Assembly: GCF_032818155.1 (NCBI RefSeq)
Contig: NZ_CP102589.1
Span: 2,590,001-2,654,000, forward strand
Direction: 5' to 3'
Origin: Niallia taxi
GTDB taxonomy: Bacteria > Bacillota > Bacilli > Bacillales > Cytobacillaceae
DNA length: 64,000 bases
Both the position numbers and the translations under genes were made by a program. Below are positions 40,579-49,186 of this stretch, piece by piece. The notes beneath the pieces are model-generated. The model was given only the letters and a program-made list of their open reading frames with translations. It made no database searches and was not told where the DNA came from. Position 1 is the stretch's first letter. Each line of letters starts with the position of its first letter.

Positions 40579-40584
40579 GCGCTT

Positions 40585-40701
40585 TTATTTGCCTTGTTGT
40601 TTGTTCATAGCAGCCATCATTTGATTGATTTTCTTTTGGGATGGTTTCATTCCCATTTGCATCATCATCATTTTAAGCATTGATGCATAAGGGTTTTTAA
40701 A
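40585..40701 (-). pseudogene. yneF: 5'-truncated remnant of yneF (UPF0154)
   Basis: The minus strand encodes [17 protein letters not shown], then [19 protein letters not shown] and GK before a TAA. This is the highly conserved C-terminal half of YneF/UPF0154 membrane proteins, which is normally preceded by one N-terminal membrane segment. Here a TAG stands directly before the phenylalanine codon and no start or membrane segment exists upstream. In B. subtilis yneF lies beside ynzD and ccdA, the same order as here. The break at about 40700 coincides with the change to prophage-type sequence. Confidence 0.8.
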
Positions 40702-41041: not shown

Positions 41042-41785
41042 ATGAGTACTATAATTAGATGTATAAACTGTAACCGAAAAAACAGGATATATGATACTAA
41101 AAAAATCAAATCATTACAAAATATCAAATGTGGTTCTTGTAAGTACAGTATCTTCAATTTGAGAAAAAAGTTCACTAGATATTGCGAGTATTGTAAATCA
41201 AGGCATGAAGCCTTGGGAAACGGATATTATTCCAAATGTCTAAAATGTAAAATGCCACTTGTGGGCAATTACGCAAGTGAGGAAATAATTTGTGATACAT
41301 CGTGTTATTACTGTATGAAGAAAGTAGAGTATACATCATATAGTTCATATTTAACTACTTTAAAAAATGAAAAATGTAAAATTTGTAGTAAGTATATATT
41401 TTATATAGAAGGTGAAAAAGAGATTTCGAAAATAGATCAAATGAGCGGTATTGAATTTGAGATTTTTTTACAAACTTTATTTATGAATTTAGGTTACCAA
41501 GTTGTGAGGACTAATTCTAGTGGCGATCAAGGGGCTGACCTAATTATAAATAAAAATGGAAAAAGGATAGCCGTCCAAGCAAAGAGGTATAAAAATAAAA
41601 AAGTAGGGAATAAAGCTGTTCAGGAAGTACTTTCTGGTAAGTATTATTATAATTGTGATGAAGCGTGGGTAGTAACTAATTCGAACTTTACTGATAGCGC
41701 ATATAATTTATCTATAAAAACTAATGTAGAATTAATTAGTCGATTAAATTTAATGGAGTTAATGTTAAAAAGTGCAGATAAATAA
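41042..41785 (+). CDS. Mrr-like restriction endonuclease with N-terminal CxxC (zinc-ribbon) repeats
   Basis: A 247-residue protein. The N-terminal half has six cysteine pairs (C7/C10, C30/C33, C48/C51, C66/C69, C88/C91, C112/C115), suggesting two or three zinc ribbons. The C-terminal half (about 130-247) is an Mrr_cat PD-(D/E)xK nuclease: MSGIEFEIFLQTLF, then SSGDQGADLII with D166, and IAVQAKRY with Q179-x-K181. The (Q)xK form is typical of Mrr. Such enzymes cleave foreign or modified DNA. GGAG precedes the ATG. It is a single gene at the prophage edge, with very AT-rich codon use, so it is probably a cargo defence gene. Confidence 0.75.
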   Translation: MSTIIRCINCNRKNRIYDTKKIKSLQNIKCGSCKYSIFNLRKKFTRYCEYCKSRHEALGNGYYSKCLKCKMPLVGNYASEEIICDTSCYYCMKKVEYTSYSSYLTTLKNEKCKICSKYIFYIEGEKEISKIDQMSGIEFEIFLQTLFMNLGYQVVRTNSSGDQGADLIINKNGKRIAVQAKRYKNKKVGNKAVQEVLSGKYYYNCDEAWVVTNSNFTDSAYNLSIKTNVELISRLNLMELMLKSADK

Positions 41786-41899: not shown

Positions 41900-43519
41900 C
41901 TATTTAACTGTTACTGAAACAGCTTTACCTTTGTTACCTGCTTTATCCTGTACATAGACAGATAACTTTGTGTTTTTCTTTTGTGCAGCTATTTTAACAG
42001 TATAAGCACCTTTGCTATTTACTGTAGCTTTGCCTAATTGTTTTGATCCTTTGTATACATAAACAGTTGTGTTCTTCTCAGCTTTACCTGTCACAGATTT
42101 AGACTTACTTGTAACTTTGTTTACTGAAGCTTTACCAGGAGCAGACTTATCTATATTTGAAACTTTGACAGTCTTGGATGTCACGTTACCAGCTTTATCT
42201 TTTACTTTGAATGTATATGATCCATTTTTAGATACCTTGTACTTTGTACTGGAGCTTTTAACAGTTTTCTTATTAGGTAATGTAATATTTTCTATATTGG
42301 AGGAATCACTACTAGTTATTTTGACTTCAACATCTTTATTGGTTGCTTTAGTAGTAGATACTGAACTTTCCACTTTAGGAGCAGTCTTATCAATATTAGT
42401 TACCTTAACTGTTTTTGATTTAATATTTCCTGCTTTATCAGTAACCTTAAAGGTATATGAACCATTTTTTGTTACTTTATAGCTTGCTTTGTCGCCTTTT
42501 ACCTGTTTACCATTTGGTAATAAAACATAATCAACACCTGTTTTAAAAGGGAAAGATGAAAACCCATTTTCTTCATCTTTACTTGTAACAGAAATAGTGA
42601 TATCTTTGTTTGTTGGTTTACTTGTAGAAAGGCTACTAGTTATTGATGGAGCTGTTTTATCAATGATAAAATAAGCATCAGTCGCATTTCCTGCTTCATC
42701 TTCAACTACTAAATGGTATTTACCCTCTGCTTTCAAATTATAATTTTGAGGTAATCTATATTCAGCCAATACATATTCACCGTATCTGTAAAATGAAAGC
42801 GAAGCTCTATCTTCGCTAAAACTAATAGTTACATCTTTGTTGTATACTCCATTATTGACTACACCACTAAAAGTTGGGGCAGTTCTATCAATAGAAAAGG
42901 TAACGTTTATCCTACTACCACTAGGTTCATAAATTTTAAGTATATATTGACCTTCTTCAGTTATTGTTTCTCCACTTTCAAATTCATAACCATTTAGTAA
43001 AGCATTACCATTAAAAATAGGAGTTACGCTGGTAGTATATCCTTTGTTGCTTTCAACGTTCTTATATCCATAATCAAACGATACGTTATTTGTTATTCCA
43101 AGCTCATCTTTCGTATAAATTTTTTGATTATCCACTCTATCCATAGCAGACAAACTAACGAAATACCATTTTCCTCTTGGATCATAAGTACTTAAAGAAT
43201 AACCGCCTTCGTAATATGCAATTTGTTCGTCTTTATCATACACAGCTTGCAATTTAATGTTGAAAGAACTTTCTAAGGGACCCTTGAAACGAGCATTTAT
43301 GGTATCTACTCCTGATATATCATCAGTGACATTTGCTCTCACATGTATCCAATCACCATTATCAAGAACTTCCTTATCAGGTAATTCAATTTCAACATCA
43401 CTAACTAGTGGTGCATTGACATCTGGAGCTGCATTTGAGCTATTTGGTTGTAAGAATATAAAAAAACATACTAAACCAAAAATAAAACTCATTAATTTAA
43501 ACCTTGGTGATTCTCCCAT
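41900..43519 (-). CDS. Secreted protein with bacterial Ig-like repeats
   Basis: A 539-residue exported protein. A signal peptide (to about residue 30, ending SNAA) is followed by beta-rich Ig-like modules. The C-terminal half has at least three Ig-like repeats marked by DKTAP and the strand NGSYTFKV(T/K)DKAGN, the last one ending with VQDKAGNKGKAVSVTVK. No LPxTG, membrane anchor or catalytic motif is visible, so it is probably released or wall-bound through charge. GAGG lies eight bases before the ATG. As a late-side prophage cargo gene it might change the host surface or adhere to something. This is inference. Confidence 0.72.
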   Translation of the reverse strand: MGESPRFKLMSFIFGLVCFFIFLQPNSSNAAPDVNAPLVSDVEIELPDKEVLDNGDWIHVRANVTDDISGVDTINARFKGPLESSFNIKLQAVYDKDEQIAYYEGGYSLSTYDPRGKWYFVSLSAMDRVDNQKIYTKDELGITNNVSFDYGYKNVESNKGYTTSVTPIFNGNALLNGYEFESGETITEEGQYILKIYEPSGSRINVTFSIDRTAPTFSGVVNNGVYNKDVTISFSEDRASLSFYRYGEYVLAEYRLPQNYNLKAEGKYHLVVEDEAGNATDAYFIIDKTAPSITSSLSTSKPTNKDITISVTSKDEENGFSSFPFKTGVDYVLLPNGKQVKGDKASYKVTKNGSYTFKVTDKAGNIKSKTVKVTNIDKTAPKVESSVSTTKATNKDVEVKITSSDSSNIENITLPNKKTVKSSSTKYKVSKNGSYTFKVKDKAGNVTSKTVKVSNIDKSAPGKASVNKVTSKSKSVTGKAEKNTTVYVYKGSKQLGKATVNSKGAYTVKIAAQKKNTKLSVYVQDKAGNKGKAVSVTVK

Positions 43520-43612
43520 AAATTGAACCTCATCTCTAATATTGTAAATGCATTAATATATTACCATTTTCACAGGAAATTGTAATTACTTTCCTTACAA
43601 TATTTTTCTATA

Positions 43613-44053
43613 TTATATTACATTACCAATTTCCTTCAATACATTCAATATCAATGGACTAACCTGAATCAACACATACCCTAATCCAGCCCTTGTAATC
43701 TGAGACCAAGCCTTATCAGCCTTATCAAACATGAAGTAAAAACAAGAACCTACTATTATTACTGAAGCAACTGGAAAGGACAATGCAACAAGTACATCTA
43801 AAATGGGATCTAAAATATGAGCTAATGCGGATATTGTTTGTTCGCCCATCCATTCACCTGCTCCTACGGGTATTGCTTCGGTTGAAGGTGACGCAGCGAA
43901 TGCAGGTTTAGCCATAAATAACGGTATTACTATTGATGTCCCTACACGTTTCATTATCTTTAAAACTTTTCTTTTTTCCGTTTTTGGAAATAAGTTTTCT
44001 TTCTTCTCCTTATAACTTCCACTCATGAACTCATTAAATGCGATAGCTTGCAT
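43613..44053 (-). CDS. Small signal-anchored membrane protein (TrbC/VirB2-pilin-like topology)
   Basis: A 146-residue protein. A basic cytoplasmic leader (residues 1-45) precedes a hydrophobic segment ending AKPAFAA, which looks like a signal-peptide cleavage region. The mature part has two membrane segments (LDVLVALSFPVASVIIVGSC and GLGYVLIQVSPLILNVL) separated by a short polar loop (DKADKAWSQIT). This long-leader, two-helix plan resembles TrbC/VirB2 pilins, but the similarity is in topology only. GGGAGAG precedes the ATG at 44053. It is third in line after the FtsK and Replic_Relax genes and probably works with them. Confidence 0.55.
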   Translation of the reverse strand: MQAIAFNEFMSGSYKEKKENLFPKTEKRKVLKIMKRVGTSIVIPLFMAKPAFAASPSTEAIPVGAGEWMGEQTISALAHILDPILDVLVALSFPVASVIIVGSCFYFMFDKADKAWSQITRAGLGYVLIQVSPLILNVLKEIGNVI

Positions 44054-44122
44054 ATTAATCTCTCCCTCATAGTTGTTATAAAACCTTGTTGAGCAAACAT
44101 TATCCTGTATGGTAATCAACGA

Positions 44123-44734
44123 TCAAATAAAATCAGCAACAGTAAACACCTGTATATTTAAACCTTTGTGAAGTTCAATCAATTCTTTCCTTCTATGTTC
44201 TGTAGTGGTAATCCATATGAAGTGTGGAGCCATCATTCCAAAAGAATTACGCTGTCTTAATATCCGATACTTTTCAATTTTCTTTTCATTCCGTTTCATT
44301 GTCTGAGTATTATCAACTTCTACAATACAATGAGCATCACCTTTCATGAAAACAGCATCTGCAACACATTTAATTTCTTCCTTACCAGATACACTTTTAC
44401 TAATTATTCTTCGTTCATTCAGCCATGTTTTAGGGCATCTGAAAGCAATATACAAATGATTCCTCATGATATAATGCTGAACGTTACCTGTACGCTTTCT
44501 CACCTTATTACAGTCAACTAATTCCCTGCCCTTTGCATTTAAGTAATAAATGTATTCTCCATCCTTGATAACATTTAAGTACTCTTCCATCTGCTTTAGT
44601 ACTCGTTGAGCATTCCTGTCACTCTTTAAATCATGTATTCTCTGAATCTGACTCCTAGTTAGAAAGTCCAGCATCTTCAAAGATCGTAATATACTTTCCT
44701 GTCGATTCATCTTCTCCAGTTGTTTTTGATTCAT
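44123..44734 (-). CDS. Replication-relaxation family protein (Replic_Relax)
   Basis: A 203-residue cytoplasmic protein. The N-terminus is a winged-helix-like region (ILRSLKMLDFLTRSQIQRI, with RNAQRVLKQMEEYL), followed by HYIMRNHLYIAF and a nuclease-like fold containing DAVFMKGDAHCIVEVDNTQ, the hallmark of Replic_Relax proteins found on phages and plasmids. The start at 44734 is supported by AAGGAG but lies 80 bases inside the end of the ftsK-like gene, so the two are tightly linked. The molecular activity of the family is not established. A role in DNA processing for replication or transfer is inferred. Confidence 0.75.
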   Translation of the reverse strand: MNQKQLEKMNRQESILRSLKMLDFLTRSQIQRIHDLKSDRNAQRVLKQMEEYLNVIKDGEYIYYLNAKGRELVDCNKVRKRTGNVQHYIMRNHLYIAFRCPKTWLNERRIISKSVSGKEEIKCVADAVFMKGDAHCIVEVDNTQTMKRNEKKIEKYRILRQRNSFGMMAPHFIWITTTEHRRKELIELHKGLNIQVFTVADFI

Positions 44735-45971
44735 CTATGATTTCACTCCTTGATTTGAAGTTAATCGTAATATGTGGCTTTATTATGGTGTCAATGAATG
44801 AATTGTCTATATATGGTGACTGTACAATCCTTTCTTGGTCAGATTGATAAATTCCCCTACCTGGTATACCAACAGGTAAATCTTCAGCACCATTCTTATC
44901 TAATACAACTCCACTTTGAGTTGCCGTTTTTAATTTAAAACATAATGCGGCACTGGTATTTGCCTTAACTTGACTAGGAAAGACCGATGCTAAAGGATAC
45001 TGTGTGCAAAATATTAAACGGAATCCAAGTCCTGCACCTATTCTTGCGATTTCTCCAACCAGATACTGTGCTCTGTCTCTTTGAACAGAATCAAATCCTG
45101 TTATTTCAGCTCCTTCATCAACTATTACCACATGGCGCTCTTTCCAGTTTGCTTCTTTAATGTCTTCCCAACCATTTCTTAAAAATAACTCCTGTCGTCT
45201 TATCAATTCCTTTTCCAATGCTTCAAGAGTTTCTAATGTTTCATTTGCATTTTTAGCTAAGGATTTGACTTGTTTGCAATTTCTATATCTCGCAAAGGAC
45301 AACCCGCCTTTTAAATCCACTAAACTTAGGCTTAAATTATCTGGTTCATTATGAATTAAAGTTGTTACTACATTCTTTAGAAATACTGTCTTTCCATAGC
45401 GTGTCATTCCGGCAACAAGTAATATTGGCATCTTTTCAAAATCGTGTTTAATGAATTCCTTATGTGTAAATCCTATAGGTACTTCCCAATTCTTCACCCT
45501 TTTTAATATGGATTTATCGTAATCAACTCTATCCGCTATTCCGTGGTCAAACACTCTCATGCGTAACATTCCGTCATATTCCATTTCCAATTCTTTTTTT
45601 AAATCCATTCTATAATCCAAAATGTCCTTTATTTGTTTGGACAAAGTCTTATCAAATTTAAGTCCCTTGAATCTTTGTAATTCAATTTGTCTTTTGCTTT
45701 TATTATTAAGTCCATCCTTAAACACACTATAAGCCTTTTGGAAATCCTCAAATCCTAAACCATATGGAACTTTGAAAACATACTCAGTGTAATTGAACTC
45801 TTTATTTCTAGTTCGTCTGTAAATCCTAAGTTTTTCATCATCTTTGTACAATCCTACTCGATCAGCAATCAATAAAATCTTTTTAGTTTCATTAATCGAA
45901 TTTGTTTTGTAATAATGACCTGCACCGGCTAAACACAGCATGATACTTGATGTTAATATCTCGAATAACAT
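44655..45971 (-). CDS. FtsK/SpoIIIE-type DNA translocase
   Basis: A 438-residue ATPase. An N-terminal hydrophobic stretch (LFEILTSSIMLCLAGAGHYY) may anchor it weakly. The motor domain has Walker A GMTRYGKTVFLK, Walker B RHVVIVDEGAEI, and downstream RIGAGLGFRLIFCTQYPLAS typical of FtsK/TraB-type pumps. It lacks the four TM helices and gamma domain of chromosomal FtsK. Comparable proteins occur on Bacillus phages and on elements that conjugate double-stranded DNA. It heads the leftward cassette with Replic_Relax and the pilin-like protein, divergently from the XRE gene. Confidence 0.82.
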   Translation of the reverse strand: MLFEILTSSIMLCLAGAGHYYKTNSINETKKILLIADRVGLYKDDEKLRIYRRTRNKEFNYTEYVFKVPYGLGFEDFQKAYSVFKDGLNNKSKRQIELQRFKGLKFDKTLSKQIKDILDYRMDLKKELEMEYDGMLRMRVFDHGIADRVDYDKSILKRVKNWEVPIGFTHKEFIKHDFEKMPILLVAGMTRYGKTVFLKNVVTTLIHNEPDNLSLSLVDLKGGLSFARYRNCKQVKSLAKNANETLETLEALEKELIRRQELFLRNGWEDIKEANWKERHVVIVDEGAEITGFDSVQRDRAQYLVGEIARIGAGLGFRLIFCTQYPLASVFPSQVKANTSAALCFKLKTATQSGVVLDKNGAEDLPVGIPGRGIYQSDQERIVQSPYIDNSFIDTIIKPHITINFKSRSEIIDESKTTGEDESTGKYITIFEDAGLSN

Positions 45972-45990
45972 TTCCCCACTCTCCCTCTGA

Positions 45991-46006
45991 TATCACCTAA
46001 GTGATA
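45991..46006. promoter_or_regulatory. Palindrome upstream of the ftsK-like gene
   Basis: TATCACCTAAGTGATA is an inverted repeat (TATCAC / GTGATA) 20 bases before the ftsK-like start. It is a candidate operator for the divergently encoded XRE protein. Confidence 0.4.
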
Positions 46007-46183
46007 GTTGTAGTTGAGACGAATTTTGAAACGAAATCTAATAGTTTGTTATAACAGCATTATTGCAAGTACTTCATTGTTCGTAGGTCTGTTTTGTAAA
46101 CGAAATGTGATGCGAATTGTAGAGTGTATTAGGGAACGACAGAAAACTTGCCTGTCTCTTAACATTTATTTTAACTTTTGTGA

Positions 46184-46207
46184 TAAAATAAGTTAAAAGG
46201 TATTAAC
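46184..46207 (+). promoter_or_regulatory. Promoter and candidate autorepression operator of the XRE gene
   Basis: An extended -10 (TGATAAAAT, with TAAAAT at 46184-46189) is followed directly by the inverted repeat GTTAAAAGGTATTAAC (46192-46207), which would cover the start point, 36 bases before the XRE ATG. Confidence 0.45.
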
Positions 46208-46242
46208 ATCAATGTGTAGAATGTAATATATGGGTGAATATA

Positions 46243-46455
46243 ATGTTTAAAAATAGAATAGGATATTGGGCTGATAAAAAAGGAGTTAAACATAAATTTT
46301 TGGCGAATGAGTGTTCAGTAACAATACAGACATTTTCACGGTGGGTTAATAATAAAAATCAACCTGATTTGAGACAATCCTTTATTATCGCTCGTATATT
46401 AAATATCTCATTAGATAAATTGGGGGAAATTGAAACTAATGAAGATGAAGAATAA
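46243..46455 (+). CDS. XRE/Cro-family helix-turn-helix regulator
   Basis: A 70-residue DNA-binding protein made of a single HTH_3 domain: FKNRIGYWADKKGVKHKFLA, recognition helix VTIQTFSRWVNNKNQPDL, and ARILNISLDKLGEIE. The ATG at 46243 follows GGGTGA. A GTG three codons earlier overlaps that site. It stands divergent from the ftsK-like gene, with inverted repeats in between, as expected for a local repressor. Its size is Cro/Xre-like, without a cleavage domain. It may control the cassette rather than the whole prophage, since the main lysogeny region is probably outside the window. Confidence 0.8.
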   Translation: MFKNRIGYWADKKGVKHKFLANECSVTIQTFSRWVNNKNQPDLRQSFIIARILNISLDKLGEIETNEDEE

Positions 46456-46490
46456 CAGATTAATACGCTGTATACGAGAGGATAACTAAC

Positions 46491-47075
46491 ATGAAACAAG
46501 AAATTATTACAACAATAAAGAATTTTTTACCTATTGCAGGTGTTTTATTGGGTTTTTTACTTGCAACAACTAAAGATTGGATTACAGATAAACCAAAAGT
46601 TAAGTTAAATTTAAAAGGAGGAAAAATTAACTACTTTAAAATGATTGAAGACGTTAAAATTTATGTGCATGAAGATGAAGCTGAATTCTTATTAATTGAT
46701 CTTAAAGTTGATATTTATAACTATGGTAAAGGAAATACCGCAATTAAAGATGTCGTTATTGACATTAAAAGGGGAGAAAGAGTATTAGCTCTCCAACCAG
46801 AGATGCACATAAATAACAATAATAATGAGGATTATTCCTTTACTCTAGACAGCTCAAGTATAGTCACTATGAACCTTAAGTTAGTTGTTGATAGGCAAGA
46901 AGAGAATCGTGAATACATTTTTGAAGACTCCCCTATAAAATGGGACGGAAAAGATAGGCTGCTCTTTAATGTCCTTGCTACTGATATAAAGAATAAAGAG
47001 CACAAATTGAAAGTAGAACCCGCTTACGTATTAGGTGCGATTGAAGGTAAAACAGAAATCGCTGTAGAAAACTAA
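46491..47075 (+). CDS. Single-pass membrane-anchored protein, unknown
   Basis: A 194-residue protein with an N-terminal membrane segment (FLPIAGVLLGFLLATT) and a beta-rich soluble domain: AEFLLIDLKVDIYNYGKGNTA, with NYGKGNT recalling Ig-like or sandwich folds, then VTMNLKLVVDRQEENREYIF. AGAGGAT precedes the ATG. It follows the XRE gene by 35 bases in the same direction. No family is recognised. This domain plan (TM plus sandwich) is common among phage-encoded exclusion and toxin-partner proteins, but that is only suggestive. Confidence 0.55.
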   Translation: MKQEIITTIKNFLPIAGVLLGFLLATTKDWITDKPKVKLNLKGGKINYFKMIEDVKIYVHEDEAEFLLIDLKVDIYNYGKGNTAIKDVVIDIKRGERVLALQPEMHINNNNNEDYSFTLDSSSIVTMNLKLVVDRQEENREYIFEDSPIKWDGKDRLLFNVLATDIKNKEHKLKVEPAYVLGAIEGKTEIAVEN

Positions 47076-47902: not shown

Positions 47903-48409
47903 ATGAAATTTTGTCCAGAATGTGGCACAAAAGCAGAAGGAATGAAGTTTTGCCCTGAGTGCGGTTATAAATTAGGGGAAGTTGCAGCAGCTATAGAAAC
48001 AACAACTGCGCCAGTTGAGCTAAATAAAGAAGAAACTTTATTATTAACATTTCAAACGCATATGTTCGGAATGGAAAATAAAAAAGGTATGTTAGGAAAG
48101 TTTGAAATATCTATTCCTCAGTATAATTATGAGCTTACTACAGAGCGTTTGTTGATAAATAAAGTAGGAGTAATCTCCACAAAAAAAGATGAAATTGAAC
48201 TGTACAAGATTAAAGATGTAACAGTGAAACAAGGTATGAAAGAGAAGCTTGGAGGTTTTGGAGATATTGAAATACAAAGTTCCGATACTTCACATCCTAC
48301 CTACACAATCAAGCGAATTAAAGATCCCAACAACGTGAAAGAAACAATTCGCTGTGCTGTTAGAGAAATTAAGAATAAGATGAACATTAGCTATAAAGAA
48401 GAAATTTAA
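47903..48409 (+). CDS. Zinc-ribbon plus PH-like domain protein
   Basis: A 168-residue protein. The N-terminus holds a compact zinc ribbon with two CPEC pairs (MKFCPECGTKAE and KFCPECGYKLGE). After a linker, residues about 45-165 form a bacterial PH-like domain: YELTTERLLINKVGVISTKK, IELYKIKDVTVKQG, and GDIEIQSSDTSHPTYTI. Such proteins often occur in prophages of this family and may bind membranes or partners. TAGGAGTGA precedes the ATG. It converges on the endolysin, with a shared terminator. Confidence 0.72.
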   Translation: MKFCPECGTKAEGMKFCPECGYKLGEVAAAIETTTAPVELNKEETLLLTFQTHMFGMENKKGMLGKFEISIPQYNYELTTERLLINKVGVISTKKDEIELYKIKDVTVKQGMKEKLGGFGDIEIQSSDTSHPTYTIKRIKDPNNVKETIRCAVREIKNKMNISYKEEI

Positions 48410-48472: not shown

Positions 48473-49186
48473 TTACTTATTCAATTGTTTTAACATTGCA
48501 GCACGAGTATTCTTACCGTAAATCCCATCAACAGGGTTACAATGAACACTTTGGAATCGCCTCAAAGCATCCTCAGTCTTAGCACCCCAGATACCATCAG
48601 CAGTCCCACATTTGAAGTAGAGTTTGTTCAATGCTTCCTGGATTTGTTTAACTGCTGTTCCTTTGCTTCCTTTTTTGTATGTACCAGTTGGTAATGTATA
48701 CGTAGTCTTTTTTGTTTCTGTTTTTGTCTCAGTCTTTACTGTTGTAGCTTTCTTAGTAACTAGGGTAATTTTATTACCTTTAGTTTTGAAAGTATCAGTT
48801 CCATAACCTTTATAAGCATACTCCAGATGTGGTTTATCAACAAAACTAGACCAATCTCCACCCCATTCAAAACCAAGCTTCTTAGCGTATGAAATTGCCT
48901 TCTTAGCTTCTGCAGAACCATAACCATTCCATAATGTTGTTTTACCGTCCACAGGTACGAAATCTAAAGCTTGACCAACAATATGATAAGACTTCATTGT
49001 TTGAGAAGCACCTTTAGCAAAATTTGCTTTCTGAGTTGCTTCAGAACGAATAGTTTCATAGATCAATATGTCAATCTTATTTTCAATAAGGTATTGATAC
49101 CATTCAATGGCTTTATCCTTTGTGTTGTCTCCAAGTTGGGCAATGTTCTCCAAGTTTCTTTCATGATATGTAGGTGTGAAATCCAT
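48473..49186 (-). CDS. Phage endolysin: M15 L-alanyl-D-glutamate peptidase with peptidoglycan-binding domain
   Basis: A 237-residue lysis enzyme without a signal peptide, so it depends on the holin for release. The M15 peptidase domain (about 1-130) has SYHIVGQALDFV (zinc His and Asp) and LGFEWGGDWSSFVDKPHLEY (acid and third ligand). A Thr/Lys-rich linker follows, then a PG_binding_1 domain (about 165-235) with GSKGTAVKQIQEALN, DGIWGAKTEDALRRFQ and DGIYGKNTRAAML. GGAGATG lies upstream of the ATG. It resembles the Listeria Ply500 type and the host CwlK in its catalytic domain. Last gene of the late operon. Confidence 0.92.
   Translation of the reverse strand: MDFTPTYHERNLENIAQLGDNTKDKAIEWYQYLIENKIDILIYETIRSEATQKANFAKGASQTMKSYHIVGQALDFVPVDGKTTLWNGYGSAEAKKAISYAKKLGFEWGGDWSSFVDKPHLEYAYKGYGTDTFKTKGNKITLVTKKATTVKTETKTETKKTTYTLPTGTYKKGSKGTAVKQIQEALNKLYFKCGTADGIWGAKTEDALRRFQSVHCNPVDGIYGKNTRAAMLKQLNK

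Follow-up and report, generated by a model that had tools for sequence, protein, structure and literature searches.

What an FtsK-type DNA pump, a Replic_Relax protein and a small membrane protein do together when their genes are packed side by side in a prophage is the question raised by a cassette of Niallia taxi. It occupies positions 43613-45971 on the minus strand of a 64,000-nt stretch of contig NZ_CP102589.1 (the window, to whose positions coordinates refer unless a locus is named), as placed by the list of open reading frames (ORFs) and by Pfam matches (Table 1). ORF coordinates and Pfam agree with a preliminary description, made from the letters alone, of three leftward genes with the start of the Replic_Relax gene inside the pump gene: the two ORFs overlap by 80 bases (44655-44734). 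For all three parts there is a match among conjugation components: TcpA for the motor, the layout of MOBC relaxases for the Replic_Relax protein and VirB2/TrbC for the small protein (referred to below as the pilin). The reading we favour, to which we give about an even chance, is that the cassette is a compact DNA-translocation module made of conjugation-type parts, a phage accessory set usually found beside a divergent XRE gene and mobilization-like in its action.

The motor, Replic_Relax and pilin genes are one unit. Each protein was searched separately in 193 genomes of the same family and the positions were then compared. The Replic_Relax search gave 64 rows corresponding to 63 places, because two rows of genome G093 are one broken gene. 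A motor gene lies at most 400 bases upstream of the Replic_Relax gene, or overlaps it, in 61 of the 63 places (the other two are fragments); the order motor, Replic_Relax, pilin is found in 39 and the motor only in 22. Twelve of the 51 pilin rows have no Replic_Relax row nearby, several of them being fragments. A pilin relative is also present in 37 of 57 phage records with a Replic_Relax relative (counted by eye, RefSeq duplicates included), and 10 of the 47 phage records with a pilin relative have no Replic_Relax relative (TP-84 types and others). A pattern scan covered 50 named-genome loci and 75 viral-contig loci, which overlap each other and the other sets and are thus not independent. 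Both partners accompany 101 of its 126 Replic_Relax ORFs; a further 22 have a motor but no pilin, two stand without either partner, and one is fused to the motor and also has a pilin gene. Contig ends coincide with at least two of the missing partners. Because the set recurs across many genomes, the cassette is more than a chance arrangement.

Pairwise distances point the same way. In 87 loci with all three genes and distinct motors the correlation is 0.74 for motor and Replic_Relax, 0.70 for motor and pilin and 0.76 for Replic_Relax and pilin, values that shared descent inflates. The XRE gene, a direct neighbour too, served as internal control: in the 71 of these loci that have a divergent XRE gene, the motor-XRE correlation is 0.16 and the motor-Replic_Relax correlation 0.73, a control weakened by the shortness of the XRE proteins and by possible paralogues among them. 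The three genes therefore travel and diverge together, a point on which the preliminary description had made its proposal depend. It had also seen the XRE gene as a divider between the cassette and its neighbours. A divergent XRE gene is instead a usual part of the arrangement, found within 1.5 kb in 92 of the 120 loci with room for it; taken with the low motor-XRE correlation, this makes it a usual neighbour that is nevertheless swapped.

The motor scores 60.4 bits against Pfam FtsK_SpoIIIE (cut-off 24). This domain is shared with the coupling protein TcpA of pCW3 (Clostridium perfringens) and with the TcpA-type proteins of integrative mobilizable elements, and TcpA is the best match of the motor, tied with FtsK by fold and ahead of it by sequence. 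No FtsK gamma domain was matched in Pfam at E 1 or better, a terminase PHROG family was matched weakly (E 0.001), and the tail of the structure model (residues 413-428) is of low confidence. TcpA has two N-terminal helices whereas the cassette motor probably has one; the motor also differs from TcpA systems in its partner, a PF13814 protein. In one IMG/VR contig (L151) the motor and Replic_Relax proteins form a single 613-aa (amino acid) frame with both Pfam domains over cut-off and a pilin gene present, a single case in which a sequencing frameshift is possible. In streptococcal elements tcpA lies upstream of the relaxase gene, an order like that of the cassette (PMC5357655).

The Replic_Relax protein scores 49.0 bits against PF13814 (cut-off 25.3) and its gene is the one match to this family in the 5.29-Mb host genome. 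Its structure model (pLDDT, the predicted local distance difference test, 97.2) combines a MarR-like winged helix (residues 1-76) with a PD-(D/E)XK-like domain in which D126, E139, D141, N149, K152 and Y156 are invariant. The PD-(D/E)XK match is remote (TM-score about 0.4), and the nuclease part rests on Foldseek because VIA-align gave rows for the winged-helix part only. A PDB sequence search with the Replic_Relax profile led nowhere (best E 0.09), no NCBIfam model matched this protein or the pilin, and a viral structure library returned mostly uncharacterised proteins. PF13814 is likewise the family of the MOBC relaxases TraX of pAD1 and MobC of CloDF13, and TraX reportedly (an account by Francia of 2013) has a winged helix and a PD-(D/E)XK domain. 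The cassette protein is predicted to have the same layout, a likeness drawn at the level of PF13814 and of the model. MOBC relaxases are related to restriction endonucleases (PMC6499999, PMC12857230).

The pilin falls just under two Pfam cut-offs, with 27.4 bits for TrbC/VirB2 (cut-off 27.9) and 24.6 for T4SS_pilin (cut-off 26.6). Among 37 members of its family, matches at E 0.01 or better were to TrbC in 21, to T4SS_pilin in 20 and to the next family in 2. Inspection by eye gave the features of the preliminary description: the N-terminus is basic, a signal-like stretch ends in AFA|A and there are two hydrophobic helices. VirB2/TrbC pilins also have a long basic leader, a signal-like cleavage site and two helices; the cassette protein differs in its score and in that other pilus genes were not found. 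Its PDB profile search gave unrelated chains (best E 0.59). An alternative, longer frame of 168 aa starts with TTG at 44119.

Modules without a pilin have other partners. Of 34 such loci, 22 were read as having a different small protein, with two helices in most cases, encoded upstream of the motor gene and 12 as having none clearly, in an ORF listing that includes chance hydrophobic frames. Eighteen of the 22 proteins are one alignable family (16 aligned), whose model had 0 matches in 101 pilin loci and matched 7 of 24 pilin-less loci, five of the seven belonging to the model itself. HH comparison of this protein with the pilin aligned a 14-column N-terminal motif only (probability 20.7, E 0.0011; a wider alignment gave 15 columns at probability 5.4), which is suggestive at most of a short motif common to both. 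The first 120 residues of the motor track the partner type: a pilin accompanies 37 of 38 motors aligned from residue 1-2 (the remaining one is divided between contigs) and 3 of 25 aligned only from residue 61 or later, all three being fragments. Single-clade queries make part of this pattern expected, but not the positional switch.

Some loci add a further gene. In L081 (5532-6149) and similar loci a Peptidase_M23 ORF abuts the pilin gene, some loci holding a ~70-aa piece only. Full-length ORFs resembling that of L081 were found in 13 loci, some of them near duplicates, together with six further short pieces; the ORF starts at most 182 bases past the pilin end in 10 loci and 903 bases past it in two, and one has no adjoining pilin. 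The two that were scanned score 84.7 and 93.0 bits (cut-off 28.7). Phage Silence (L055, 9004-9851) has two different tandem pilin-like genes after Replic_Relax. In L060 (8028-10567; phage TP-84) and L074 (2532-5164) a pilin-like gene overlaps that of a phrog_5156 protein of 754-778 aa (754 aa in TP-84), perhaps another module with the same kind of small protein. On Priestia filamentosa plasmid p5 (L206, 4572-6591) genes for a small two-helix protein, a motor and a Replic_Relax protein lie beside a divergent helix-turn-helix (HTH) gene, and the 12.6 kb covered there have no phage gene annotations.

In the working that we propose, the winged helix of the Replic_Relax protein would bind a site on the element's own DNA, and its PD-(D/E)XK centre would nick or cut the bound DNA in a relaxase-like manner. 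This DNA, probably double-stranded, would then be taken up and pumped by the membrane-anchored TcpA/FtsK-like motor. The membrane site for this would be made by the VirB2-like protein, in whose place sister modules would use the different small two-helix protein; some modules add the M23-type wall peptidase. Most likely the module would serve to move the element's DNA, in a mobilization-like way, into another cell or compartment. The analysis shows the gene order, the co-divergence, one fused frame, the predicted folds, invariant residues that resemble an active site and, for a more distant set described below, that plaques form without it; complex formation, nicking and the direction and destination of the DNA are steps that we infer. 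The module could be mobilized by another system, could act alone like Streptomyces TraB, or could serve spores or exclusion. TraB, which transfers double-stranded DNA, resembles the cassette in that its motor is of FtsK type, it has accessory membrane proteins, it recognises DNA by sequence and it works apart from a full type IV system; it differs in that recognition would lie in a separate nuclease protein in the cassette (PMC12857230). A bolder version, which we think unlikely, is a self-sufficient exporter of double-stranded DNA without VirB4, made up of a pump like TcpA, a nuclease like those of MOBC and a small membrane protein that can be exchanged. With no need of virions, it would send the DNA of a virus or plasmid to the forespore or to a cell nearby.

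Several observations weigh against mobilization. No VirB4-class ATPase was found among the Pfam-scanned prophage ORFs (some small ORFs were compared with PHROGs only, and about a dozen of at most 106 aa lay outside the scan), and a search of the divergent region for an origin of transfer (oriT) gave weak repeats and no conserved oriT-like site. The cassette is therefore not a complete conjugation system of a known kind, and the DNA-transfer or replicon-maintenance module first proposed is borne out in part: in the joint travel and divergence of the genes and in the conjugation-type relative of each part. The window pilin lies below both Pfam cut-offs, and among the 11 plasmids on which a related gene lies PLSDB counts seven as non-mobilizable and four as mobilizable, an FtsK gene being annotated at each match. 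TcpA was not found with PF13814 relaxases in streptococcal elements, only two elements of that set having such a relaxase (PMC5357655); the same absence sets the pairing of a TcpA-type pump with a MOBC-type relaxase apart from those elements. Phages inferred to be virulent also carry the set (PMC9658697), and why a lytic genome should be mobilized is not easily explained. The palindromes noted earlier at the XRE gene are present but modest, with 9-bp arms (TTTTAACTT/AAGTTAAAA) at 46169-46198 beside the XRE start. A best inverted repeat of at least 10 pairs occurs in 23 of 100 loci versus 7 of 100 plain letter shuffles, at varying positions and with near-duplicate loci included. A promoter scan of 43450-46550 gave 11 matches, fewer than the 15.1 of the shuffles.

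A natural pair of phages bears on the readings that follow. Within the compared stretch 268TH007 and 268TH002 differ by a 2,525-bp indel; its flanks, of 1,128 and 2,856 bp, are 100% identical, and 9 bases are common at the joint. Four proteins are encoded on the 268TH007 insert: one of 95 aa with two hydrophobic stretches, one matching FtsK_SpoIIIE (97.3 bits), one matching Replic_Relax in the C-terminal part only (38.0 bits) and one of HTH type. The set counts as a distant relative, as it was absent from the 57 phage records with a Replic_Relax relative. Both phages form plaques and this set is their main difference (PMC9476937), so plaques can form without the distant set. This touches the result that the preliminary description said would speak against it, a mutant without change in phage production.

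Carriage into spores is quite unlikely; here the pump would load the forespore with the DNA of a phage or plasmid, which would allow the element to survive in spores. Such a role would fit a virulent phage as well as a prophage or plasmid, and the genera named as hosts of the 50 genome loci are known as spore formers. The Replic_Relax profile matches 16 of 398 genomes of the class (the window genome included; three by fragments only), and SpoIVA is found in all 16 against 268 of 398 overall (p 0.0015), an association confounded by shared host ancestry; the SpoIVA model also matched Thermotoga, one of the controls. A review suggests a link of other phage FtsK genes to sporulation (PMC4113786). 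Integrated prophages, however, travel with the chromosome anyway, neither a nuclease nor a VirB2-like protein would be needed, and Staphylococcus aureus is the stated host in two phage records (in the one examined the motor is annotated in two pieces). Superinfection exclusion, with a membrane pump and nuclease attacking incoming rival DNA, we regard as rather improbable. The gain or loss of the distant set as an accessory would fit it, as would the likeness of motor plus nuclease to HerA-type defence complexes, which are among the lower-ranked fold matches, and over its ATPase part the motor matches two PADLOC (2023) models, SspH (65 bits) and mad8 (51 bits); PADLOC has no match for the Replic_Relax or pilin protein, though, and a VirB2-like partner and closeness to TcpA suit transfer better. 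Most doubtful is processing of the phage genome, be it DNA entry, plasmid-like replication, dimer resolution or integration/excision. Published suggestions of this sort are DNA injection (PMC3853050), plasmid replication and segregation (PMC9658697) and, for an FtsK gene, integration (PMC3335513), and the PHROG name is 'replication initiation protein'; yet the distant set is dispensable for plaques, and the membrane proteins and M23 partner would be left unexplained. A lysis or tail function was rejected, as in the preliminary description: none of the matches of the three proteins at E 0.1 is to a lysis or tail PHROG.

The genes themselves are not new to print, and what was first called the best candidate for an undescribed system is not wholly new. 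The same or a more distantly related set appears in Novomoskovsk, Bolokhovo, Andromeda-group phages and the 268TH007 insert (PMC9658697, PMC9476937). The three genes were listed in two phages as plasmid replication/segregation genes (PMC9658697), the 268TH007 set was interpreted as prophage induction (PMC9476937), neither interpretation being that of a transfer unit, the motor gene was mentioned in PMC3853050 and the Replic_Relax gene alone in PMC7685451. Excerpts of these openly available papers and of PMC3335513 contain neither a functional study nor a TcpA-MOBC-VirB2 reading. Should the set move DNA, the virion would not be the only route of DNA transfer in tailed phages of spore formers, and conjugation would have a working form much smaller than its known systems. 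The 268TH007/268TH002 pair, with and without the distant set, makes the question testable. Even in a spore or exclusion role, a widespread phage set often labelled 'replication' would need renaming.

Table 1. Features of the cassette and its surroundings in the window.
Feature	Position	Strand	Remarks
FtsK/SpoIIIE-type ATPase	44655..45971	-	438 aa, TcpA-like, probable N-terminal membrane helix by eye
Replic_Relax (PF13814) protein	44123..44734	-	203 aa
VirB2/TrbC-like membrane protein	43613..44053	-	146 aa, ATG at 44053, phrog_5422
Divergent XRE/Cro-type regulator	46234..46455	+	probably controls the cassette
Divergent intergenic region, probable control region	45972..46233		9-bp inverted repeat near XRE start
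attL, 98-bp repeat	40584..40681		second copy beyond the window at L002 15656-15753

The location in a prophage was borne out. Its limits are a perfect 98-bp repeat with copies 39,072 bases apart (~39.07 kb), between which lie genes for a Mrr-like nuclease, an Ig-domain protein, the cassette, endolysin, tail, head, portal, terminase and a serine resolvase, a tyrosine-integrase gene forming the far end. The attL copy matches the 3' end of a gene that looks like yneF. A role as integrase helper near dif was set aside, given this site of the prophage and the presence of the set in phages inferred to be virulent (PMC9658697). The cassette had been placed next to the lysis genes, but some 2.5 kb separate it from the endolysin gene (48473-49186). 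A Mrr-type restriction nuclease gene (41042-41785, plus strand; PF04471, 100 bits), likely a defence gene of the prophage, lies on the attL side of the cassette, before attL is reached. Directly after the pilin gene, a 539-aa secreted-looking protein with bacterial Ig-like domains is encoded at 41900-43519 on the minus strand; it is outside the ORF clusters found in at least six related loci. The serine resolvase gene (L002, 4861-5448) lies between the terminase genes, and the accessory stretch of the prophage includes a gene for a zinc-ribbon and bacterial PH-domain protein (47903-48409, plus strand).
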